Source of the DNA: Alistipes sp. | GTDB taxonomy: Bacteria; Bacteroidota; Bacteroidia; Bacteroidales; Rikenellaceae | NCBI GenBank assembly: GCA_017555695.1 | Contig: JAFZFX010000010.1 | Span: 1-40,576 of the forward strand | Direction: 5' to 3' | DNA length: 40,576 nucleotides | Part shown: positions 2,277 to 22,245 of the stretch, piece after piece | Numbering within the stretch: the first letter of the stretch is position 1 | Layout of the letters: each line of letters begins with the position of its first letter | The notes under the pieces: model-generated | Told to the model about the DNA's origin: nothing | What the model saw: the letters and a program-made list of their open reading frames with translations, nothing else | Databases searched by the model: none | Made by a program: the position numbers and the translations under genes

Positions 2277-4880
2277 ATGAACATCAACTCTTTAACCATT
2301 AAGGCGCAGGAGGCTTTGCAGGGTGCGGTCTCTTTGGCGCGCGAGCGTGGTCAGCAGGCTGTTGAACCGATGCATCTATTGAGCACGCTCATTAAGGACG
2401 ACGACTCTCTGGCCGTGTTCCTGTTGGGTCGCGTAGGCGTGAATGTGGCTACGCTCAAGAGCGAGGTGGCCTCCGCGTTGGGTGCTATGGCTCGCGTATC
2501 GGGTGGCAATGGCGAGCAATACTTTTCGGGCGACACATCGAAGGTGATTCAGCGAGGCGTGGACTTCACACGCACATTCAACGATAAATACGCCTCGGTC
2601 GAGCATCTGCTGTTGGGTCTTGTGGCTGAGCGTGGCGCTGCGGCCGATATGCTCAAGCGCAATGGTGCTACCGAGAAGGATTTGGTTCAGGCCATCCGCG
2701 AGTTCCGCAAGGGCTCGACCGTCGATTCTCAAACTTCGCAGCAGGAGTTCAACGCTCTGGGTAAGTATGCCATCAACCTTAACGAGATGGCCCGCAGTGG
2801 TAAGTTGGACCCCGTTATTGGCCGTGATGACGAGATTCGCAGAGTGTTGCAGATTCTTTCGCGCCGCACTAAAAATAACCCCATTCTCGTAGGTGAGGCG
2901 GGCGTTGGTAAGACTGCCATTGCCGAGGGCATCGCCCACCGCATCGTGGATGGTGATGTGCCCGAAAACCTCAAGTCAAAGTCTATCTTCTCACTCAATA
3001 TGGGAGCGCTGGTTGCTGGTGCCAAGTATCAAGGCGAGTTCGAGGAGCGTTTGAAGGGCGTGGTACAGGAGGTTATTGCCAGCGACGGCGAGATATTGCT
3101 CTTCATCGACGAGATTCATACCCTGGTGGGTGCTGGTAAGTCGAGCGGAGCGATGGATGCCGCCAACATATTGAAGCCAGCACTTGCGCGTGGCGAGTTA
3201 CGCACGATAGGTGCTACGACACTCGATGAGTTTCAGAAATATTTTGAGCAGGACAAGGCTTTGGAGCGCCGTTTCCAGAAGGTGTTGGTTGATGAGCCTA
3301 CGACCGAGGATGCTATATCTATTCTGCGCGGTTTGAAGGAGCGTTATGAGAGTCACCACCAGGTTCGCATCAAGGACGAGGCTATCATTGCGGCCGTTGA
3401 GCTTTCACACCGCTACATCACCTCGCGCTTTTTGCCCGACAAGGCTATCGACCTTATCGATGAGGCGGCGGCACATCTGCGTCTGGAGATGAACTCTGTG
3501 CCCGAGGAGATTGACAACCTCGACCGCCGTATTCGCCAGCTCGAAATCGAGCGCGAAGCTATCCGTCGCGAGAATGACGAGCAGCGTGTTGAGGCGCTCA
3601 CGCGCGACATCGAGGAGTTGAAGTCTTCGGAGGCGGCACTTCGTGCCAAGTGGCAGGGCGAGCGTGATATCCTGCAGAAGATTCAGCAGAACAAAGACTC
3701 AATCGAGCATCTTAAAGTCGAGGCCCAGCAGGCCGAGCGCGCGGGCGACTACGGTCGTGTGGCCGAGATTCGCTATGGCAAGATTGTCGAGGCTGAGAAG
3801 CAGATCGATGCATTGCAAGAGCAGTTGCGCCTGACCACAACCAATGGAGATGCAATGATTAAGGAGGAGGTCGATTCGCAGGATATAGCCGATGTGGTAT
3901 CGCGTTGGACAGGTATTCCCGTGCAGCGTATGCTCTCGTCGGAGCGAGAGAAGTTGCTCAAGATGGAGGATGAACTGCACAAGCGCGTGGTGGGTCAGCA
4001 CAACGCCATCGAGGTTATTTCGGATGCCGTGCGCCGTTCGCGTGCGGGGTTGAGCGATGCTCGCAAGCCTATCGGCTCGTTCATCTTCTTGGGTACAACG
4101 GGTGTGGGTAAGACCGAGTTGGCCAAGGCTCTTGCCGAGTTCCTCTTCAACGATGACTCTATGCTCACCCGCATCGATATGAGCGAATATCAGGAGCGCC
4201 ACAGCGTATCACGATTGGTGGGTGCGCCTCCGGGATATGTCGGTTATGACGAGGGCGGACAACTCACCGAGGCGGTGCGCCGCAAGCCCTATTCGGTGGT
4301 GTTGCTCGATGAGATTGAGAAGGCTCACCCCGATGTGTTCAACATCTTGTTGCAAGTGCTGGACGATGGTCGTCTGACAGATAATAAGGGTCGCGTGGTG
4401 GATTTCCGCAATACGATAATCATTATGACCTCGAATATGGGCTCGCACCTGATTCAGGAGCACTTCTCGCAGTCGTTTGACGGTGGCACAGTCCCTGCCG
4501 AGGTGGTGGAGCGCACTCGCGACGAGGTGATAGAGTTGCTGAAAACACAGCTCAAGCCAGAGTTCCTGAACCGTATCGACGAGATTGTGATGTTCGAGCC
4601 TCTGACTCGCGCAGATATCGAGCGGATTGTCGATATTCAGATGTCAATCATCGAGCGTATGCTGGCTCATAACGGTGTGGAGTTGCACTATACCGACAAG
4701 GCCAAGCAGTTCATCGCACATCTGGGTTATGACCCGCTGTATGGAGCCCGTCCCGTCAAGCGCGTTATCCAGCGCGAGGTGGTGAACGACCTCTCGAAGC
4801 GCATCCTCTCAGGTGAGGTCAGTCGTGAGCGAGCGATAACGATAGATTCCGATGGAGAGAAACTGATTTTTACCAATTAG
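2277..4880 (+). CDS. clpB: ATP-dependent disaggregase chaperone ClpB
   Basis: This 867-residue protein has the full ClpB layout and usual length. An N-terminal Clp domain (about 1-145) is followed by AAA+ module 1 with Walker A GEAGVGKT (206-213) and Walker [10 protein letters not shown]. Next comes a long coiled-coil middle domain (about 405-530, heptad-like and rich in E, R and L). AAA+ module 2 has Walker A GTTGVGKT (606-613), and the sequence ends with a C-terminal D2-small domain. ClpB threads aggregated proteins through its hexamer pore together with DnaK (family knowledge). The middle domain separates it from ClpA/ClpC. It has its own 270-bp upstream region with TGTCA repeats and a terminator directly after, so it is probably monocistronic. 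Confidence 0.97.
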
Positions 4881-4901
4881 CCTCTCCGCCGCAGAGATAA
4901 T

Positions 4902-4938
4902 GGGGTTGTCCGATAGATAGTTGGGCAGCCCCGTTTTT
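4902..4938 (+). terminator. Rho-independent terminator after clpB
   Basis: GGGGTTGTCC (4902-4911) pairs with GGGCAGCCCC (4923-4932), including G-U pairs, and is followed by G and five T. The T tract overlaps the -33 box of the next promoter. Confidence 0.8.
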
Positions 4939-4967
4939 GTATATTTACGAATAAATGGTTACATTTG
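4936..4967 (+). promoter_or_regulatory. Bacteroidetes-type promoter of the DUF5106 gene
   Basis: TTTG (4936-4939), 20 bases, TACATTTG (4960-4967): an exact match to the TTTG-N19-21-TAnnTTTG consensus. It supports the ATG at 4996 and excludes the longer upstream reading frame. Confidence 0.75.
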
Positions 4968-4995
4968 CTTTTCGAAAAGAAACAAATTGGTAATT

Positions 4996-5922
4996 ATGAA
5001 GAGATTTTTAGTTGTGATATTTGCGCTCGGCCTGATGTCTAATGTGGCTATGGCGCAGGAGCAGGCTGCACAGACGCCTAGCGTAACATTCCCTATGGTG
5101 ACCGTCCCCGAGAGCATCATACAGCCTCAGGAGCGTGCCAAGTATTTGGGTGAGCACTTCTGGGATAATGTGGATTTTGCTACCGCTTCGGATGCTCTGT
5201 TGGAGCAGGGTTTGATTGATATGGCTTCGATTTTCCCGTTGCTGTCGGCTGATGTTATGACCTCGTCAATGGCGGCGTGGGTTGAGCGTGCAGGCGCAGT
5301 GAAGGGTGCTTTGAAGCGAGTTTTGACACTTGGCGATAAGTACCTCTACGATACGGCCTCACCTCTCTACAACGAGACGGCTTACCGCTCGCTGCTGCAG
5401 TCGGCGCTGGTGTCGAAGTCGATAGATAAGGCCGATAAAGAGCCCTACCAGAAGCAGCTGGTAATGTTGGAGATGAACAACGAAGGTATGTCTGCCGTAG
5501 ATTTTCAGATGCAGCTGACCGATGGTAGCAAGGCACAGCTCTCGGATGTGAAGTCACCCATCGTGATTCTGTTCTTCTACTCGCCCGAAAACCTCGATTG
5601 CAAGTTGCAGCGCTTCCGCCTCACACAGGCCAAGTTGGTGAACTATCTCCAGCGCGCAGGTGGCGTGAAGATTGTTGCCGTATGTGTCGAGGGTGAGAAG
5701 AGCGCTTGGGAGAAGTTCGTTGCCGACTCGCCCGCCGAGTGGTTGCACGCATACGATGCTGCGGGCAAGATTAAGGGCGACAATCTCTACGACTTGCGTA
5801 CTCTTCCCCGAGTTTATATGCTCGACGAGAACAAGACTGTACTCCTCAAGAATACCAAAGCCGACAACATTGAGCAGTACCTCATTCAGCTGATTCAATC
5901 AGCCGAAGGCGCCGCCGAATAG
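4996..5922 (+). CDS. Secreted DUF5106 / thioredoxin-fold protein
   Basis: The start is placed at 4996 because it gives a classical signal peptide (MKRFLVVIFALGLMSNVAMAQ) right after a strong promoter; an upstream in-frame start would overlap that promoter. The 308-residue protein has an N-terminal DUF5106-like helical domain with the characteristic RAKYLGEHFWDNVDF (about 48-62). A thioredoxin-like fold follows from about 178 (VDFQMQLTDGS..SPIVILFFYSPENLDCKL). The usual CxxC is absent: the position after FFYSPE reads NLDC with one cysteine, so it is not a normal dithiol oxidoreductase. It probably acts in the periplasm; role unknown. A terminator follows immediately. Confidence 0.82.
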   Translation: MKRFLVVIFALGLMSNVAMAQEQAAQTPSVTFPMVTVPESIIQPQERAKYLGEHFWDNVDFATASDALLEQGLIDMASIFPLLSADVMTSSMAAWVERAGAVKGALKRVLTLGDKYLYDTASPLYNETAYRSLLQSALVSKSIDKADKEPYQKQLVMLEMNNEGMSAVDFQMQLTDGSKAQLSDVKSPIVILFFYSPENLDCKLQRFRLTQAKLVNYLQRAGGVKIVAVCVEGEKSAWEKFVADSPAEWLHAYDAAGKIKGDNLYDLRTLPRVYMLDENKTVLLKNTKADNIEQYLIQLIQSAEGAAE

Positions 5923-5940
5923 GGTCGCAGAACAATACAA

Positions 5941-5979
5941 ACAAACAGGGCAGATGTTTCGTACATCTGCCCTGTTTGT
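5941..5979. terminator. Bidirectional terminator between convergent genes
   Basis: A perfect 17-bp stem, ACAAACAGGGCAGATGT (5941-5957) with its complement at 5963-5979, around a TTCGT loop. It separates the DUF5106 gene (plus) from the GT42-like gene (minus, stop at 5981). Confidence 0.85.
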
Positions 5980-5980
5980 A

Positions 5981-6877
5981 TTACGGCATTGGCTGTCGCT
6001 CGTAGGCGTCAATCATCGAGCCGCGGGTGTGGTTGATGATTCTCACGCCCCGGTGTGCGGCGTAGTCGCGTAGCACCTCGTGACCTCGGAAGAGCTCCGC
6101 CGTCTCGGCCAGGTAGGTGTACATCGAGTATGGTCGTGGTGGGTTGGTCGCATTAAAATATATCGGCTTCGGGTCGGCGGGTTGCTTGTCGTAGTAGTGG
6201 CTCTGCACGCGGCATAGGCGGTTCTCGTCGTCCACCATCAGTCCCTCCAGCAGAGTGTGGTCCACACCGTAGAGTTCGATGGTCTTATAACCGATTAGCA
6301 TACCTATAAACTCGCCATTCTGCACCACTGTGCCGAAGTTGCCCGAGCCCAAGCCTCGGTCGTAGCACCAGAATTCAATGTTGCGGAATCCCTTGTATAG
6401 AGTAGTGTGGAACGGTACGATGCGTATGTTGGGGTTGTGGCCTATGGCAGCCGCGTAGTCGAATTTTTCGGGGTTGTAGTACTGTACATAGAGTATCATC
6501 GGCCACTCGACCCTCTGTGAGAGCGCCTCATAGAGCGCCTCGGTGCGGGGTGACTTGCCCGCTTGGCGGAAGAACATCGGGTCGGAGAGGATGTAATATT
6601 TAGGCTTGATGGTGGCGAACTCCTCGCTCAGGGCAAAGAAGTTTACGGCCATCATATCGGCCTTCTCCCAGTGGCGGTCGGCAATCAGCTGTGGCATCTG
6701 GTCGGCCAGTGAGGGGCCGTTGCCGAGTATGGCCAGGCGCTTTGTGGGCAACATATCGAGTGCTCCCGCACGCCCTATATGGTTGCGGAAATCCTCCTTT
6801 GCGGCCATTGTCGCAAAGAACAGAGCACTCTCGAAAGTGTTGCGCAGGGCCGATATTATTTTCTCTGACAGACGCAT
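5981..6877 (-). CDS. Putative glycosyltransferase, GT42 (CST-I)-like / DUF115-like
   Basis: The 298-residue protein carries RLAILGNGPSL (47-57), the nucleotide-binding signature shared by GT42 sialyltransferases and DUF115/MptE-like proteins. As in the Campylobacter CST enzymes, an AVNFF segment (77-81), a glycine-rich SGNFGTVVQNGEFIG stretch (about 178-192) with GYKTIELYGVDH, and a conserved-looking QSHYYD (225-230) follow in the same order. In CST-II the His of the equivalent SHY is the general base (family knowledge from memory). A CMP-sugar synthase-like gene nearby supports a CMP-sugar-dependent enzyme. The start is the ATG at 6877; a TTG three codons upstream is less likely. It could instead be a DUF115-type protein of other function. 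Confidence 0.5.
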   Translation of the reverse strand: MRLSEKIISALRNTFESALFFATMAAKEDFRNHIGRAGALDMLPTKRLAILGNGPSLADQMPQLIADRHWEKADMMAVNFFALSEEFATIKPKYYILSDPMFFRQAGKSPRTEALYEALSQRVEWPMILYVQYYNPEKFDYAAAIGHNPNIRIVPFHTTLYKGFRNIEFWCYDRGLGSGNFGTVVQNGEFIGMLIGYKTIELYGVDHTLLEGLMVDDENRLCRVQSHYYDKQPADPKPIYFNATNPPRPYSMYTYLAETAELFRGHEVLRDYAAHRGVRIINHTRGSMIDAYERQPMP

Positions 6878-6896
6878 TTGACTCAATTTTATGCTA

Positions 6897-6930
6897 TTGC
6901 AAAACTAATAAAAAATCGTTACATTTGCAA
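6897..6930. promoter_or_regulatory. Overlapping symmetric divergent promoters
   Basis: Plus strand: TTG (6897-6899), 20 bases, TACATTTG (6920-6927). Minus strand: TTG (complement of 6928-6930), 20 bases, TAGTTTTG (complement of 6900-6907). Each end of this 34-bp block serves as -33 for one direction and -7 for the other. The plus promoter sets the GT2 start at 6935. Confidence 0.65.
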
Positions 6931-6934
6931 TATT

Positions 6935-7876
6935 ATGCAGAATACTCGCTTGTGTGACATATCGGTGGTCGTGCCTCTCTATAACAAAGTGGCGGAAATA
7001 GAACAGACCCTGCGCTCGGTTTTGGCGCAGACTATCTGCCCGCGCGAGGTTATCGTCATCGATGATGGCTCAACCGACGGTAGTGGCGATGTGGTGGAGC
7101 GTATGATGGCAGAGATGCCCTATCTGAAACTCGTGCGCCAACAGAATTCTGGCGTCAGCGCAGCCCGCAATCGCGCAATAGAGATGGCCGAAGGCGAGTG
7201 GGTGGCACTGCTTGATGGTGATGATATCTGGGAGCCTGATTTCCTGAAGTCTATATTGCTTCTAATCGAGCGTTGGCCCGAGTGCGGAGCCTACGCTACA
7301 GCCTTTTATGTCGATGATGGACGCAAACGCGTAGTGGGCTCAACGCCTACGCTAACGGGCAAGGTCGATTTCTTTGCAGAATCGATGAGTCGATATGTGC
7401 TTATCCCTTCGGCAACCGTCCTGCGCCGAGACTTGGTGCTTAAGTTGGGTGGCTTTCCTGTGGGTATGCGTATGGGCGAGGATCAATACCTCTGGACCAA
7501 GGTAGCTCGTACGGCTGAAGTGGCATTCTTCGCCGAGCCGATGATGACCTATCAGCGAGCTGCAACAAACCGCTCGGCGGCAATCTACCGCCCCGAACAG
7601 AGTGTCTTCTCGTTGGAGGATTTGTACGATGAGTCGGCCTCGGCTATCAGCAACGAATATGTGGCTCGTGTGGCACTCGGTAAGGCTATCGTCGAGAGTG
7701 CCCGAGGTGGTACGGCACAAGCACAGCGTACGCTGGAGTTCTTCGCCTATAACACGATGTCGAAACGATTGGAACGCAAGGTAAGAGTGCTGAACGCCCT
7801 GCCTCGATGCCTGCGTCCCGCCCTTCTTGCGGCGTATAACTACCTGGCGTGGATTATCGCCCGCAAAGGAATGTGA
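6935..7876 (+). CDS. Family 2 glycosyltransferase
   Basis: The start is set at 6935 (MQNTRLCDISVVVPLYNK) because the longer in-frame form from 6878 would begin upstream of the promoter. The 313-residue protein has a GT-A fold typical of GT2: VVPLYNK at the first strand, VIVIDDGSTDGSG for nucleotide binding, NSGVSAARNRAIEMAEGEWVALLDGDD with the DxD-type metal site, and a later MRMGEDQYLW matching the acceptor/catalytic ED region. It transfers a sugar from a nucleotide donor to a surface glycan precursor (family knowledge); donor and acceptor are unknown. No transmembrane helix is obvious, though the C-terminus is hydrophobic. It is divergent from the GT42-like gene and ends at a shared terminator. 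Confidence 0.9.
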   Translation: MQNTRLCDISVVVPLYNKVAEIEQTLRSVLAQTICPREVIVIDDGSTDGSGDVVERMMAEMPYLKLVRQQNSGVSAARNRAIEMAEGEWVALLDGDDIWEPDFLKSILLLIERWPECGAYATAFYVDDGRKRVVGSTPTLTGKVDFFAESMSRYVLIPSATVLRRDLVLKLGGFPVGMRMGEDQYLWTKVARTAEVAFFAEPMMTYQRAATNRSAAIYRPEQSVFSLEDLYDESASAISNEYVARVALGKAIVESARGGTAQAQRTLEFFAYNTMSKRLERKVRVLNALPRCLRPALLAAYNYLAWIIARKGM

Positions 7877-7908
7877 TGAGGTGATAGATACAAAATATCA
7901 ATGGCCGC

Positions 7909-7930
7909 GGAGGATTCTCTGCGGCCATTG
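7909..7930. terminator. Bidirectional terminator between GT2 and cytidylyltransferase genes
   Basis: CAATGGCCGC (7909-7918) pairs perfectly with GCGGCCATTG (7921-7930 and the bases just before), with a T-rich tract on both strands. The tight loop means the innermost pairs may not all form. Confidence 0.65.
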
Positions 7931-7964
7931 TTATTTTGTTGTGGCGTCTTAAATCTTAAACTAT

Positions 7965-8615
7965 TTAGCGGTTGAGGCCGGCGGTGACGATGGCTTCGGC
8001 GAGGAGGAAATCGTCGGGGTTGTCGATGTCCATACTCTCGATGCGGTCGGTGACGGCGGTGTAGGGGCGGAAGCCTATGCGGCGGTGGTTTTCTCTCCAG
8101 AGTTCGCGGCCGAAGATGAAGAACGCCGATGTCTCGACATATATCGGCTCGAGGTCCTGCGTGCGGGGTACATTCTCGAATGAGTAGTTCAGAGGCTCGT
8201 TCTGCCACCAGGCAAAGGTCTGTATCTTCTCTGCGCTGAATGCCGAGTCGTACTCGCCACTCTGCACCTTGCCGACGGCATCGGCTATGGTCTGCGTGCG
8301 GATGAAGGGCGAGGTGGCGTGTGCCAGGACATAGATGTCGGCCTCGACCTGCTGTGTGAAGGCGTCGTATATCTCGCGGCCGAGCGTAGTGTTGCTATCC
8401 AGGCTCTCGTCACGGCGCAGGAACTTCACACCCTCGGGCAGATGCTCGACGATGGCGGGGTTGCTGCAATAGACATACACCTCGTCGATGTTATCGACCT
8501 TTGTGAGCGTCTCCAGCAGATAGGCCATTAGCGGGCGGCCACCCAGCAGACGGAGGTTCTTGCCCTCGACGCGCTGGCTGTTGAGTCTTATAGGTACGAA
8601 TGCTACGGTTTTCAT
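7965..8615 (-). CDS. Acylneuraminate cytidylyltransferase-family protein (CMP-sugar synthase-like)
   Basis: The 216-residue protein starts MKTVAFVPIRLNSQRVEGKN, the N-terminal CTP-binding signature of NeuA/KdsB-type enzymes (R..S.R..GKN). A PLMAYLLETL helix, LAHATSPF (a version of the LxxTSPL motif) and a C-terminal ..DIDNPDDFLLAE (acidic metal-binding segment of NeuA-like enzymes) follow. Such enzymes join CTP to a nonulosonic or similar sugar, giving CMP-sugar plus pyrophosphate. No sialic, legionaminic or pseudaminic acid biosynthesis gene is in the window, so the sugar is unknown. It lies 15 bp downstream of the LuxE-like gene, very likely in one operon, and a terminator follows. Confidence 0.82.
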   Translation of the reverse strand: MKTVAFVPIRLNSQRVEGKNLRLLGGRPLMAYLLETLTKVDNIDEVYVYCSNPAIVEHLPEGVKFLRRDESLDSNTTLGREIYDAFTQQVEADIYVLAHATSPFIRTQTIADAVGKVQSGEYDSAFSAEKIQTFAWWQNEPLNYSFENVPRTQDLEPIYVETSAFFIFGRELWRENHRRIGFRPYTAVTDRIESMDIDNPDDFLLAEAIVTAGLNR

Positions 8616-16688: not shown

Positions 16689-17660
16689 TTAAATCACGGG
16701 CTCTACATCGCCGAAGGGGCACAACTGCTGTCCGAAATAGTCGAACACGCTCCACTTGCCGTCGATGCATACCATCGACTCGCCCTTGTGCGGGTTGTAC
16801 TCCACGATGTCGTATTGCGGCGGGATGATATACTCCCCTTGCTTGTTGATAAGGCCCATTCCTTCCGAAGTCTCCACCTCGGCACGACCTTCGCTGAAGT
16901 CGTTTACCCACAGATATTGCGGGCGGATAACGAAGCGATTATTGCTATCGACAAATCCCCAACCCTCGCTATCCTCTACGGCCACCAGACCTTCGCTCAT
17001 CTGACCCACCGTGATGTGGCCCTCGAAGGTGGTTGTCGCTCCATACGCAGCATACTCTACATCGCGCACAATCTGCTGCTGGGAGAACTCCTCCAACGCC
17101 GATTTCATACTCTCCAACGCCTCGTCGTCGCCACCCGAAAGATTTGTGGCATAGTACCAGCGTATGGGGTAGAGGCGGTTGTGGTCATCTATCAGCAGGT
17201 TTTCTACCTTCAGGTTGTTGTGCGATAGGTCGGCCTCTTGCAGAGCCTTGTGCAGTGCAGATACCGAGCCAAGTAGCGTAGCCGCATACTCCGCATCACT
17301 CGCCGCCGTAGCCCACTCTTCGGCAAAGGGTAGCCCCCTGCGAAGTGGCTCCAGCAGGATGTCGCTGCGGCGTAGTGTGCCGAGCGCATCTTCGTAGCAT
17401 ATCTCATCACGCAGTATCTTCAGTTCAGGAACGAACTCTACTGCGGTGTGGCGTTTTGTAGGGATGAACTTCTCGGCTCTGCGTAGCGACAGTGACGAAA
17501 GCGGCGCATAGAGCATATAGCGTCCATCCTCACACTCTATCTCGCACTCGGCAAAGAGTGTCGAACGACGAATCTCGCTGATGCACTTGATGTCTTTCAG
17601 TGTGCGGAAGTGGCTGTCGGGTGATTGCAAAGCCTCACGGAGCGAAGAGATAGTCATCAT
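16689..17660 (-). CDS. WG-repeat protein with degenerate protein-kinase domain (pseudokinase)
   Basis: The 323-residue protein has two parts. Residues 1 to about 200 are a kinase fold in which all catalytic residues are lost: the HRD-type loop reads SHNNLKVEN (H137, N139, N144), the DFG-type site reads PIRWYY (R157 where Asp is expected), and the beta-3 Lys position (around 50-52) has no lysine. Residues about 213-303 hold WG repeats: EGLVAVEDSEGWGFVD, SEGRAEVETSEGMGLIN and a third KGESMVCIDGKWSVFD. The N-terminus (MMTISSLREA..FRTLKDI) resembles that of the active kinase at 18547-19686 (MTTISNIVDA..WRTLRGI), so they look like paralogues. It follows the VWA gene after 2 nt, thus translationally coupled. 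Probably a scaffold or regulator; function unknown. Confidence 0.78.
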   Translation of the reverse strand: MMTISSLREALQSPDSHFRTLKDIKCISEIRRSTLFAECEIECEDGRYMLYAPLSSLSLRRAEKFIPTKRHTAVEFVPELKILRDEICYEDALGTLRRSDILLEPLRRGLPFAEEWATAASDAEYAATLLGSVSALHKALQEADLSHNNLKVENLLIDDHNRLYPIRWYYATNLSGGDDEALESMKSALEEFSQQQIVRDVEYAAYGATTTFEGHITVGQMSEGLVAVEDSEGWGFVDSNNRFVIRPQYLWVNDFSEGRAEVETSEGMGLINKQGEYIIPPQYDIVEYNPHKGESMVCIDGKWSVFDYFGQQLCPFGDVEPVI

Positions 17661-17662
17661 AG

Positions 17663-18517
17663 TTACTGCATATTATTTACGCTTCGTGAGCCAATGTTAA
17701 TAATCGACAACAACTCTATAATCGAGGCGTTGTATCCCATCCCGACAAATGGCGGTGTTGCGCCTGCCCCTTTGAGTTGCATAATAGCCTCGTTGAATAC
17801 CTCGGGCATCTCGCTCGAACACTCGGCCAGAGTGCGGGCGTAGCGGTCGGCGTGCGAAAGCTCCTCCGCCATCGGAAATACCATCGCGGGCAGGGTGTGG
17901 TTGGCCGAGATGTGTATGTTCAGCATCAGCACATTGCCATCCGAAGTCGAAACTCGGCGAATCTGCGAGCATACATCCGTTAGCTCTCTGTCGTCGCAGT
18001 CCGACGACTCGCCATCTGTAATGTTAATCACTACGGGCGGAAAACTCTCTCTGTTCTGCTCCGTGGCGCACCACTTCTCCACCATATCGCGTATGTGCAG
18101 CATTGCCTCATACATCGGTGTCTTGCCTTCGGCCTTGGGCTGAAACCACTGCGTCAGAGTGTGTTCCACCATAGCCGATGAGCCGTCGGGCATCGACTCC
18201 TCCACGGCCATTGTTGTGGGTTCGGGTGCCATTGCCGCCAACTCCTCCACCGATATGAATCCATCCTTGTGAAGTAGCATCTCCACCTCGTCGTTAGAGT
18301 AACCCACCACCGCTACATCGTAGTAGTTGCGCAGCGAGTCAATTCGGCGACAGCGGTCGATAATTTCCGTAATCAGAGAGCCTGCCATCATCGTCACAGC
18401 CTCGGCCTTGCTTAACATCATACGGCCCAGACGGATACGCTCCTGCATTGAGCCCGAGCGGTCGAGCGCAATGATGATAGCAGCGCGATGACGGCGTGTA
18501 ATCTCCTGTGAATACAT
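17663..18517 (-). CDS. VWA-domain protein with intact MIDAS site
   Basis: The 284-residue protein is a von Willebrand factor A domain: strand RAAIIIALDRSGSM with the MIDAS DxSxS (D19, S21, S23), a third ligand Thr in EGKTPMYEA (T133), and Asp in NITDGESSD (D168). No signal peptide or transmembrane helix, so cytoplasmic. It resembles the TerY-type VWA proteins that accompany kinases and PP2C phosphatases in bacterial signalling (family knowledge). Its own promoter lies 19 nt upstream, inside the end of the kinase gene. It is followed 2 nt later by the pseudokinase gene. The intact MIDAS predicts metal-dependent binding of a protein partner. Confidence 0.85.
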   Translation of the reverse strand: MYSQEITRRHRAAIIIALDRSGSMQERIRLGRMMLSKAEAVTMMAGSLITEIIDRCRRIDSLRNYYDVAVVGYSNDEVEMLLHKDGFISVEELAAMAPEPTTMAVEESMPDGSSAMVEHTLTQWFQPKAEGKTPMYEAMLHIRDMVEKWCATEQNRESFPPVVINITDGESSDCDDRELTDVCSQIRRVSTSDGNVLMLNIHISANHTLPAMVFPMAEELSHADRYARTLAECSSEMPEVFNEAIMQLKGAGATPPFVGMGYNASIIELLSIINIGSRSVNNMQ

Positions 18518-18536
18518 AAATCGGTGATTTTCTTCG

Positions 18537-18567
18537 CAAATATAGTCTATTTGTCTAAATTTTGCAA
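18537..18567 (-). promoter_or_regulatory. Internal promoter for the VWA-pseudokinase pair
   Basis: On the minus strand TTG (complement of 18565-18567), 20 bases, TATATTTG (complement of 18537-18544). The -33 lies within the last codons of the kinase gene (stop at 18547), so VWA and pseudokinase can be expressed without the kinase. Confidence 0.65.
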
Positions 18568-19686
18568 TAAATCAACGCTATTGACAATCTCCTCTCTGCC
18601 GTCGGTGTAGTGGGCTGTAGTGGTGCCGTTGCGCAGAGGTTTTATGCGTGTGCCTCGGTCGAAACTGCGCACTATGCGGCCGTCCATCGCCACCAGGTGA
18701 ACATATCCGCCCAGCTCTGCCACCATCACTCCGTCGGTCGGCTCGTAGCCGTTGTCGAAGTGGGGTTTTATCAGCCAGCGGCCGTCGGCGCAACATCCCC
18801 AGTAGCCGTTAATCTGGTCGAGATGTGGCGTCGAGTCGTCATCTTCAGGTGCGGAAGGCGAAAGAATGTTGCCGAGGTTGAATAATCGCGGAATGGGTGA
18901 AACGAGCATCTGCGACAGCCTGTACGCCTGCGCCATACCTTTGCGGGCAAAGAGTTCGCTGATGCGCTCCAATTCGGCTACATCACCTTTGATTATGCGC
19001 TGTGGCTGTAGGCGTGGTTCTTTGTATTGGCGGAAGTGTTCCAGCGTGGTGGGGTCTATCGCGGCGGTGTGTAGCAACACCGAGATAGCGGCTATCGAGT
19101 AGTCGTCTATGTGTTTGTCGTATAATGCGTTAGTGCGTAGTGGGTGCTGATAGGCGGCCGTTCCTGTTTCTAACGCCAGCTCGCCCGCCAGCGAGGGTAG
19201 GTATGCGGCATCCCAATCTATCGCCTCCATCTGGCCATCCTCTCGTACGATGATATTCTCGGGTTTCAGGTCGCCGTGCGCCCGCTCCGAGAGCAGTATC
19301 CCGCATGCCATTTGGTCGAAGGCCGCCGCCAGGAGTTTCAGCTCTTCGGCTGTGGCGGCACGACAGAGTGCCTCCTCCAATGTCACGCCCTCGATGTAGG
19401 GCGTCAGCAGGCAGTCAATCCACATCTTGCACCCCGTGATATCCACGATGCAGAGCTCGCGCTGAAGATAGGCCGAGCCGTATATCGCTGGCAGATGTTT
19501 GTTGGTGCGGGTGTAGCACTTCAGGCTCTTCTTCTGGCCGTTGTGCATCACTCGGAATGTCACGGCCGCATTGCCCGCCACAAAGCGTGGGCGTCGGCCC
19601 TCCATCTCGGGCACAATGCCGCGTAGCGTGCGCCATACGGTGTACGGGGCAGCTACGGCATCTACTATGTTCGAAATGGTTGTCAT
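18547..19686 (-). CDS. Hanks-type Ser/Thr protein kinase with C-terminal WG-like region
   Basis: The 379-residue protein keeps the kinase catalytic residues: beta-3 Lys K56 (KKSLKCY), HGDLKPEN (H137, D139, N144), a DFG-like AIDWDAAY (D157) and GTAAYQHP (175-182) in the activation/P+1 segment. It should therefore be active. Residues about 290-375 contain WG-like motifs (INGYWGCCADGRWLIKPHFDNGYEP, then VMVAELGGYVHLVAMDGR). No transmembrane helix, unlike PknB-type receptors, so it is cytoplasmic. First gene of the kinase-VWA-pseudokinase unit; no clear promoter was found upstream, where the SlyD terminator lies 31 bp away. Substrate unknown; the VWA protein and pseudokinase are the obvious candidate partners (inference). 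Confidence 0.85.
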   Translation of the reverse strand: MTTISNIVDAVAAPYTVWRTLRGIVPEMEGRRPRFVAGNAAVTFRVMHNGQKKSLKCYTRTNKHLPAIYGSAYLQRELCIVDITGCKMWIDCLLTPYIEGVTLEEALCRAATAEELKLLAAAFDQMACGILLSERAHGDLKPENIIVREDGQMEAIDWDAAYLPSLAGELALETGTAAYQHPLRTNALYDKHIDDYSIAAISVLLHTAAIDPTTLEHFRQYKEPRLQPQRIIKGDVAELERISELFARKGMAQAYRLSQMLVSPIPRLFNLGNILSPSAPEDDDSTPHLDQINGYWGCCADGRWLIKPHFDNGYEPTDGVMVAELGGYVHLVAMDGRIVRSFDRGTRIKPLRNGTTTAHYTDGREEIVNSVDLLQNLDK

Positions 19687-19717
19687 CCAAGCCTTTGTGC
19701 TGATGTGATTATATCAA

Positions 19718-19755
19718 AACAGGGCTGCACGACATCCTCTGCCGACAGCCCTGTT
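19718..19755 (-). terminator. Terminator after the SlyD-like gene
   Basis: A perfect 10-bp stem, AACAGGGCTG (19718-19727) with CAGCCCTGTT (19746-19755). On the minus strand it is followed by TTGATATAAT, a short T/A-rich tract. Confidence 0.7.
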
Positions 19756-20493: not shown

Positions 20494-22245
20494 ATGATGA
20501 AAAAAATACTTGCGATAATTTGTGTGGTGGTCGCTATTTTTGTGGCATTTGGGAGGAGTCAAGATACTCTTTTGTTTAATGACGGACAGAGTGAATATTC
20601 AATTGTTTTATGTGATGATGCCTCTATATCAGAACAGACCGCCGCGAAAGAGTTGCAGGGTTATCTGCAAAAGATTAGTGGGGCTCTGCTCCCGTTGCTA
20701 AATAGTAATGAATTGGTAGAGGGCGGCAAACATATATATGTTGGTTTTAACGAGGAGTATGCTGCCGAATATGGTGTAGAACTCCCCAAAGACAGTGATG
20801 AAGGATACACCTATCGCACTGTTGGTGATAACATCTGGATTTATGGTGGCAAGAATCGAGGCACGATGTACGGAGTCTATTCATTCCTCGAAAATGAGTT
20901 TGGCGTAAGGTGGTACACCGTAGATTATACAAAGATTCCTACTGCCAAAAAGTGGAGAGTAAAAGAGTTGTGCCATAGCGAACAGCCATTTATACAATAC
21001 CGTTTTGTGCAATATTTTAACGCAGATTATGGCGATTGGCAGGCTCACAACAAATGTAATTCGGCCACTTGGGTTGCTGAAAATGAATATGGAGGACTTA
21101 CTGCATATTGGGAGGGGCACACTTTTAGACTATTCATAACTGCCGACGAGTATTTCGAGGAACATCCCGAATATTTTTCTCTACGCGAGGGTGTGCGCAG
21201 ACCGAATGAGCAAGTGTGTCTGTCAAATCCCGAAGTGTTGCAGATATGTATCGACAAAATGAAACATACTATCGAGGAAAATCCATTGTTTGATGTGTAT
21301 AGTATGTCGCAAAATGATAACCCTTTCCCTTGCGAATGTGAAAAATGTCGTGCTTTAGAGGAGCAATATGGCGGACATTCGGGTATAATTCTTTGGTTTG
21401 TCAATCAAGTTGCAGATGCCATGAAACCATTATACCCCGACAAATATATTGGTACATTTGCCTATCAATATTCACTTGAAGCCCCCACAGGTATCGTTCC
21501 GCGCGATAATGTGGTTATACGACTTTGTAGTTTCGGATTTTGTTTTGCGCACCCGTTAGATGAGTGTAAATATAACGAAGAGTTTGTTCCGATTATTGAA
21601 AAATGGTCGCAGATAGCACCGAATCTTTACATTTGGGATTATGTGGTTAATTTTTGGCAATATGTAGCACCATTCCCGAACTTTAATGTCTTGGCGAATA
21701 ACATAAAGTTGTTCAAAAAACACAATGCCATAGGTGTTCGTGAGCAAGCCGACTATCAGTCTAATGGTGGTGAGTTTTCGGATATGAAGGCTTGGGTGTT
21801 GTCAAAATTGCTATGGAATCCATATCAAGATACTCAAGAGTTGGTATCTCAATTTATAAAAGACTTTTACGGCGAGGCTGCACCTTATGTTCAAAAATAT
21901 TTTGACCTATGTCATTCGCTGATAAAGGATGACACTGAGATGATTTTCTATATTGATGCACACAACCCTCTCTATACTGATAAGTTTGTAAAGGAGGCTA
22001 AAAAGATAGTAACCAAAGCACAACAAGCAGTCGAAAATTCTGATGAGGAGATGCGTCTGCGTGTGGATATGGTTGCTTTGCAAGTGGATTATTTGCGATT
22101 GTATCGTACTCCTCAAGAGACTTTGGCCGACGGAACATACGATTGGGTCTGGAATTTTGTTCGAAAACACAATATCCGCATACACGAAATGCAGGATATT
22201 GAAAAAACAATTCAAATCTACAACGATACTTATCTTGAGAAATAA
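20494..22245 (+). CDS. Secreted DUF4838 (alpha-glucuronidase-like) protein
   Basis: The 583-residue protein starts with a signal peptide (MMKKILAIICVVVAIFVAFGRSQ). An N-terminal GH67-N-like domain follows (TAAKELQGYLQKISGALLP, then GTMYGVYSFLENEFGVRWY), then a long TIM-barrel-like region typical of DUF4838 with SMSQNDNPFPCECEKC (a CxCxxC cluster) and FVNQVADAMKPLYPDKYIGTFAYQYS. DUF4838 members sit in Bacteroidetes polysaccharide-use genes and are suspected glycoside hydrolases; activity here is unproven. Base composition is clearly more AT-rich than the neighbours, and the gene stands alone between its promoter and a terminator, which suggests horizontal acquisition. Confidence 0.85.
   Translation: MMKKILAIICVVVAIFVAFGRSQDTLLFNDGQSEYSIVLCDDASISEQTAAKELQGYLQKISGALLPLLNSNELVEGGKHIYVGFNEEYAAEYGVELPKDSDEGYTYRTVGDNIWIYGGKNRGTMYGVYSFLENEFGVRWYTVDYTKIPTAKKWRVKELCHSEQPFIQYRFVQYFNADYGDWQAHNKCNSATWVAENEYGGLTAYWEGHTFRLFITADEYFEEHPEYFSLREGVRRPNEQVCLSNPEVLQICIDKMKHTIEENPLFDVYSMSQNDNPFPCECEKCRALEEQYGGHSGIILWFVNQVADAMKPLYPDKYIGTFAYQYSLEAPTGIVPRDNVVIRLCSFGFCFAHPLDECKYNEEFVPIIEKWSQIAPNLYIWDYVVNFWQYVAPFPNFNVLANNIKLFKKHNAIGVREQADYQSNGGEFSDMKAWVLSKLLWNPYQDTQELVSQFIKDFYGEAAPYVQKYFDLCHSLIKDDTEMIFYIDAHNPLYTDKFVKEAKKIVTKAQQAVENSDEEMRLRVDMVALQVDYLRLYRTPQETLADGTYDWVWNFVRKHNIRIHEMQDIEKTIQIYNDTYLEK

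Follow-up and report, generated by a model that had tools for sequence, protein, structure and literature searches.

A kinase-VWA-pseudokinase gene module of Rikenellaceae that looks like a TerY-P descendant without its phosphatase

We analyzed a stretch of 40,576 nucleotides from an Alistipes sp. (contig JAFZFX010000010.1 of assembly GCA_017555695.1, positions 1 to 40,576; hereafter the window), whose source genome comprises 2.18 Mb in 53 contigs, and focused on three adjacent genes encoding a putatively active Ser/Thr kinase (KIN), a von Willebrand A protein (VWA) and a paralogue of the kinase that lacks catalytic residues (PSK). The module looks like a descendant of TerY-P in which the phosphatase was lost, the kinase was duplicated, one copy became non-catalytic, and the resulting set was kept as a near-core chromosomal element. 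TerY-P itself is a triad of a VWA protein, a PP2C phosphatase and a kinase, for which passages of PMC11090510 put forward the hypothesis of a phosphorylation switch that senses metal; activity of TerY-P-like modules against phage is described in the same passages and in PMC10889362, and the VWA-PP2C-kinase linkage also appears in PMC7159879. The components of the module in the window are:

18547..19686, minus strand: KIN, predicted active-type Ser/Thr kinase of 379 aa, with an N-terminal TIS...RTL segment, a kinase domain and a degenerate WG-like tail
17663..18517, minus strand: VWA, TerY-like von Willebrand A protein of 284 aa with a complete MIDAS metal site (TerY model, 1.8e-50)
16689..17660, minus strand: PSK, pseudokinase of 323 aa with a shortened C-lobe and C-terminal WG repeats, paralogous to KIN
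16995..17660, minus strand: kinase-homologous part of PSK, residues 1 to ~222, placed by BLASTP, profile-profile comparison and DFG-to-WG spacing
16692..16994, minus strand: WG-repeat part of PSK, residues ~223-323

The initial annotation had described three minus-strand genes side by side, and the open reading frames (ORFs) agree, being co-directional, transcribed in the order KIN, VWA, PSK, and separated by gaps of 29 and 2 nt. A profile scan of contigs yielded two loci, both from Alistipes, hence the whole-genome searches reported here, which used stop-to-stop ORFs with profile matches (greedy ORF picking chose antisense ORFs in GC-rich loci); all counts cover related genomes and not independent events. 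The VWA alignment comprised 29 of 40 further Rikenellaceae loci plus the window, while the KIN alignment and tree drew on 32 loci minus L081, L090 and L094, and those of PSK on 36 loci minus L065 (split frames), L072, L080 and L081.

KIN and PSK are paralogues, as the initial annotation had proposed in calling them a duplicated pair. BLASTP aligned the two at 27% identity over 192 columns (E 1e-9), and comparison of a PSK profile (33 rows) with a KIN profile (30 rows) extended over 430 columns with a probability of 100 and E 6e-67, so that chance resemblance could be rejected. The PSK family profile also matched kinases in the PDB with E values down to 9e-6; the single PSK sequence reached only E 0.58, and by itself the window PSK gave no Pfam kinase match. 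Its C-terminal part matched Pfam WG_beta_rep at 3e-17. WG or WG-like motifs had been attributed to both proteins; besides PSK, 20 of the 30 KIN rows matched Pfam WG repeats at E 0.01, and the window KIN, with its degenerate WG-like tail, gave no Pfam WG match up to E 1.

The two paralogues differ sharply in their catalytic residues. In a joint alignment that included ten kinases linked to PP2C genes outside the family, the catalytic Asp (D139 of KIN) was present in 30/30 KIN rows, 10/10 PP2C-linked kinases and 0/33 PSK rows, and the DFG Asp in 30/30, 10/10 and 2/33, respectively; Lys occupied the beta-3 column (column 56) in 26/30, 4/10 and 8/33. This alignment also confirmed that K56, H137, D139, N144 and D157 are intact in the window KIN. 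The window PSK carries Asn149 in place of the catalytic-loop Asp, Arg167 in place of the DFG Asp, and Tyr in the beta-3 Lys column, substitutions that had been described correctly but under the residue numbers of the aligned KIN, the positions in PSK itself being H147, N149, N154 and R167. With kinase homology on the one hand and missing catalytic residues on the other, PSK is a predicted pseudokinase.

Its decay appears to have been stepwise. The catalytic Asp is gone in all 33 PSK rows and replaced by Asn in 25 of them. Of the 15 rows from other genera, 8 still have the beta-3 Lys and none has Arg at the DFG position; the 18 rows from the window's genus all have that Arg, and none has the Lys. 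The distance from the DFG position to the WG repeats has a median of 55 residues in the 18 rows of the window's genus (55 in the window PSK), compared with 139 in the 15 rows of other genera and 134 in the 17 KIN rows with a placeable WG part, which do not include the window KIN; single spacing values are rough, since the start of the repeats was located by matching each row to the WG part from the window. Judged by this spacing, PSK in the window's genus has to all appearance lost ~80 residues of the kinase C-lobe, a feature that the initial annotation overlooked. One row of the window's genus, L102, looks intermediate, with 128 residues between DFG and WG. Two further loci deviate in other ways: in L065 (genome G008, ~6860-8359) PSK looks split between two frames, unlike in its genus mate L079, and in L068 (G015, 4756-5961) a degenerate kinase-plus-WG gene precedes VWA instead of following it, and the KIN match lies on a separate contig.

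The window KIN matched PADLOC STK_OB (6.7e-18, spanning residues 99-214 only) and Pfam Pkinase (5e-6, under the Pfam cut-off); STK_OB matched 30/30 KIN rows. KIN is predicted to be an active kinase. No OB-fold or zinc-ribbon family was among the eight Pfam families listed for the 30 KIN rows, a statement that concerns sequence matches only. Pfam TCAD9 (Ternary complex associated domain 9) matched 7/30 rows, with a best E of 1.9e-4, and the rows with Arg at the beta-3 Lys position are L095, L097, L098 and L101. For VWA, the MIDAS residues D19, S21, S23, T133 and D168, which had been called intact, proved invariant in 30/30 rows, and the PADLOC TerY model likewise matched all 30.

The module is close to universal in the family. 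VWA was matched in 226/250 Rikenellaceae genomes, in 104 of the 110 classed as good and in 22/22 genera, with a single match in all but a few good genomes; KIN was matched in 75/80 genomes and PSK in 221/250, many of the PSK matches outside the genus covering the WG part only. The conserved gene order on which the initial annotation had made its proposal depend was found: in 105 of the 116 same-genus genomes with both places listed (window included), PSK comes immediately after VWA, and the remaining 11 comprise nine with VWA and PSK on different contigs and two with both on one contig but beyond the distance limit. Among 41 loci (the window and 40 others), PSK follows VWA in 37 and KIN precedes it in 33. 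In the 50 of 75 KIN-positive genomes with listed positions, a set that differs from the 116 used for PSK, KIN adjoins VWA in 21 and lies 900-3500 nt away in 16, a spacing partly due to an unaligned KIN tail. A DUF4954/DUF6819 hexapeptide-type gene stands just before VWA in three loci that were checked (L093:4248-5981, L098:4266-5993 and L102:4169-5896), in the first two of them between KIN and VWA. Around the module, the nine-gene order GcvP-FKBP-KIN-VWA-PSK-TrxB-RNase Z-TrmH-PdxA is complete in 6/20 same-genus loci and partial in the others, partly through failure of ORF picking.

Outside the family, VWA is rare and has different company. Besides the window's own genome and one of the same family, its profile matched 2/117 genomes in the order-level search and, besides its own, 11/246 in the phylum-level search. 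Loci were compared for 11 of these 13 genomes (without G374 and G513); as they come from 7 genera, they are not independent. A PP2C gene adjoins VWA in 10/11 of them, the eleventh (L125) showing a weak match where its contig ends, and a kinase matching the KIN profile lies in the same stretch in 10/11, L125 again being the exception. Pfam PP2C_2 was matched in three of six outside neighbors tried, L126 falling under the Pfam cut-off. One cyanobacterial plasmid carries VWA, PP2C and kinase genes in a row.

No PP2C gene was found in 42 Rikenellaceae loci (the window, L063-L102 and L128) with a broad profile at E values up to 1. This profile was assembled from 8 family and 9 outside PP2Cs, because one made from outside PP2Cs had missed three unrelated PP2Cs (L127, L129 and L130), so that its silence was weak; in leave-one-out trials the broad profile recovered 8/8 family PP2Cs, with a worst E of 0.0032. 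The initial annotation had seen no phosphatase in the module and had held that one nearby in related strains would make it a plain TerY-P triad. The contrast between 0/42 family loci and 10/11 outside loci plus one weak match upholds the former and allows a plain TerY-P triad with a nearby phosphatase to be rejected. Family genomes are not devoid of PP2Cs: Pfam PP2C_2 was matched somewhere in 13/80, and in the eight of these with both PP2C_2 and VWA places listed, the two always lie on different contigs. Conversely, when eight family PP2C loci were scanned with the triad profiles, the one match was a weak VWA hit in L103 that belongs to another VWA protein. A SpoIIE-type phosphatase as a substitute was likewise rejected: matches occur in 14/41 family genomes, one being a PP2C on contig C43 of the window genome, and none adjoins VWA in the six genomes with a listed VWA place, the nearest lying ~8 kb away (G003). 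The C43 cluster (locus L127:4666-11400) contains genes for FHA, PP2C, FHA, an FHA-trypsin protease, TonB and a Ser/Thr kinase. In L129 (G122, 5610-7841), a different VWA gene has as its neighbor a gene encoding a PP2C protein of 475 aa; KIN was not matched in this genome.

In a tree of 73 rows, PSK forms one side of a branch with 100/100 support, as do the PP2C-linked kinases, and PSK branches are longer than KIN branches. WG repeats were found in 36/36 PSK rows (chosen in part by their WG part), 21/33 KIN rows and 0/10 PP2C-linked kinases, which speaks for Rikenellaceae as the side where the duplication took place; were the tree rooted on the PSK branch, the duplication would be older. Stages of the decay are still visible, with full-length dead kinases in other genera (8/15 retaining the beta-3 Lys) and half-kinases in the window's genus. 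A fuller history can be offered only tentatively, and we regard it as rather doubtful: in the family ancestor, an anti-phage kinase-phosphatase switch may have become a core regulator, losing PP2C, while the duplicated kinase gave up catalysis and later much of its C-lobe and came to control its sister kinase through the MIDAS-bearing VWA adaptor.

Taken together, these data lead us to a reading to which we assign roughly even odds (about 0.5): the module would be a cytoplasmic phosphorylation switch derived from TerY-P, with PSK as a non-catalytic controller of KIN acting together with VWA. KIN would be the working kinase, VWA would dock through its MIDAS metal site, and PSK, a dead duplicate of KIN, would have taken over control after the loss of PP2C. 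PSK keeps the N-lobe and the WG repeats, while decay has affected its ATP-site residues and, in the window's genus, a large part of the C-lobe; it may set KIN activity by binding and not by catalysis, through the N-lobe and WG repeats and with VWA. Partners often switch kinases on or off at the N-lobe, and in eukaryotes there are known cases of dead kinases controlling live relatives. PSK would bind VWA and/or KIN, its effect would probably be allosteric, and the role of the module would lie in housekeeping or stress and not in phage defense. The initial annotation had pictured a complex in which VWA bridges an active kinase to a pseudokinase scaffold, an interpretation that our results support in part.

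Several observations weigh against a KIN-VWA-PSK switch. No PSK was detected downstream of VWA in 4/41 loci (one stops at a contig end), and no KIN upstream of it in 8/41; in 13/50 genomes KIN is distant from VWA or the two differ in strand or contig, and G122 has VWA and PSK matches without a KIN match. Arg replaces Lys at column 56 in 4/30 KIN rows, yet it does so in 6/10 PP2C-linked kinases as well. The best tree does not group KIN as a single clade, although holding it together was not rejected (p 0.26), and the root of the tree was chosen by the analyst. Structure prediction lends weak support at most: the AlphaFold model of PSK is middling, with block means of 62-90 over residues 1-60 and below 50 over 65-78 and 108-178, and that of KIN, made from three sequences, is poor (pLDDT 42.2). 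Finally, the PP2C on contig C43 of the window genome could supply a phosphatase in trans, or else belong to an unrelated signaling system.

Other readings of the module were weighed against the same evidence. It could be a divergent anti-phage system that senses infection in the manner of TerY-P and phosphorylates targets in the cell, the dead kinase serving as sensor or inhibitor, as the STK_OB and TerY matches throughout both alignments would suggest, and TerY-P protected Pseudomonas aeruginosa PAO1 against some phages in the relevant part of PMC10889362. We consider a defense role unlikely in view of the VWA distribution (104/110 good family genomes, mostly with a single match) and of the complete nine-gene housekeeping order in 6/20 same-genus loci; moreover, no match to VWA turned up among phage records, and plasmid records yielded just two, at ~30% identity. 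Defense genes are usually patchy and mobile, and a near-core module in one housekeeping neighborhood among nearer relatives, with no phage and two distant plasmid matches, speaks for a cellular over a mobile-defense role, without proving it.

The tighter adjacency of VWA and PSK (105/116) relative to that of KIN and VWA, albeit in different genome sets, raises the question of whether PSK partners VWA alone, for example as substrate or adaptor, KIN being a neighbor with its own job. This, too, seems improbable to us: KIN and VWA tend to be missing together (among 80 genomes, four lack both, one lacks only KIN and one only VWA; Fisher 1.6e-5, not corrected for kinship), and in 10/11 loci outside the family a kinase of KIN type lies with VWA and PP2C. 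Least credible, indeed very improbable, is that PSK is a gene in decay that has no role of its own and travels with the conserved block around it. Its longer branches, its shrinkage in the window's genus, the split frames of L065 and a stop inside one listed genus match (G189) would fit such decay, but F18, E86, F255, E257, G275 and G310 are invariant in 33 rows, and the DFG-position Arg is strictly partitioned between the window's genus and the others. The ratio dN/dS was below 0.26 in all 12 comparisons, four of them of PSK; these estimates are rough, with dS above 1 in 9/12, and as far as they go suggest purifying selection on PSK. The module would also show TerY-P parts moving out of defense into apparently core physiology, and it offers a testable system for a phosphorylation switch that works without a neighboring phosphatase.

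The triad may have its own transcript start, given a hairpin followed by TTTT between the upstream FKBP gene and KIN:

19716..19754, minus strand: hairpin then TTTT, possible terminator

For a 52-base stretch around the hairpin a folding energy of -26.4 kcal/mol was obtained, without shuffle control, and the hairpin did not appear in a consensus terminator scan that required loops of 3-8 and 5 T in 8. Downstream, a thioredoxin-reductase-like gene follows PSK after 44 nt. A DUF4838/GH67-N-like gene at 20494-22245, on the strand opposite to the triad, has 40-42% GC compared with 51-57% in the neighboring kilobases and was possibly acquired.

We found no description of the kinase-VWA-dead-kinase arrangement in the open-licence literature, nor had the initial annotation known of one. 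Bacterial pseudokinases are largely unexplored experimentally according to the abstract of PMC12599244, and here a likely partner kinase and adaptor for one of them can be named from the conserved gene order, with graded decay across genera. PSK resembles the bacterial Ser/Thr pseudokinase families of that review in being a kinase-family protein with altered HRD, DFG and Lys motifs. The section names there are ActPs1-3, GLW, CP1, DYD and DLHK, and words beginning with bacteroid or vwa are absent from its text; PSK therefore appears to fall outside these families, set apart by description and not by sequence. Kinase-kinase-phosphatase (KKP), a module of Pseudomonas prophage Pf6, likewise has two kinases acting jointly, as sections of PMC11341870 describe. 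However, KKP includes a phosphatase and both of its kinases are described there as jointly toxic, whereas one kinase of the Rikenellaceae module is without the catalytic Asp, and the module has a VWA protein and no phosphatase in its vicinity, so that the module is not a KKP system. The closest relation is to TerY-P, with which it shares homologous VWA (TerY, 30/30) and kinase (STK_OB, 30/30) components, and outside relatives carry the same VWA with PP2C, plus the kinase in 10/11 loci. It differs in the absence of PP2C, in a duplicated kinase with one dead copy, in its near-core chromosomal distribution and apparently in its WG repeats, TerY-P kinases being described in passages of PMC11090510 with a fused OB-fold or zinc ribbon. 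The Rikenellaceae module thus departs from TerY-P at the phosphatase and agrees with it in the MIDAS-bearing VWA protein and the type of kinase.

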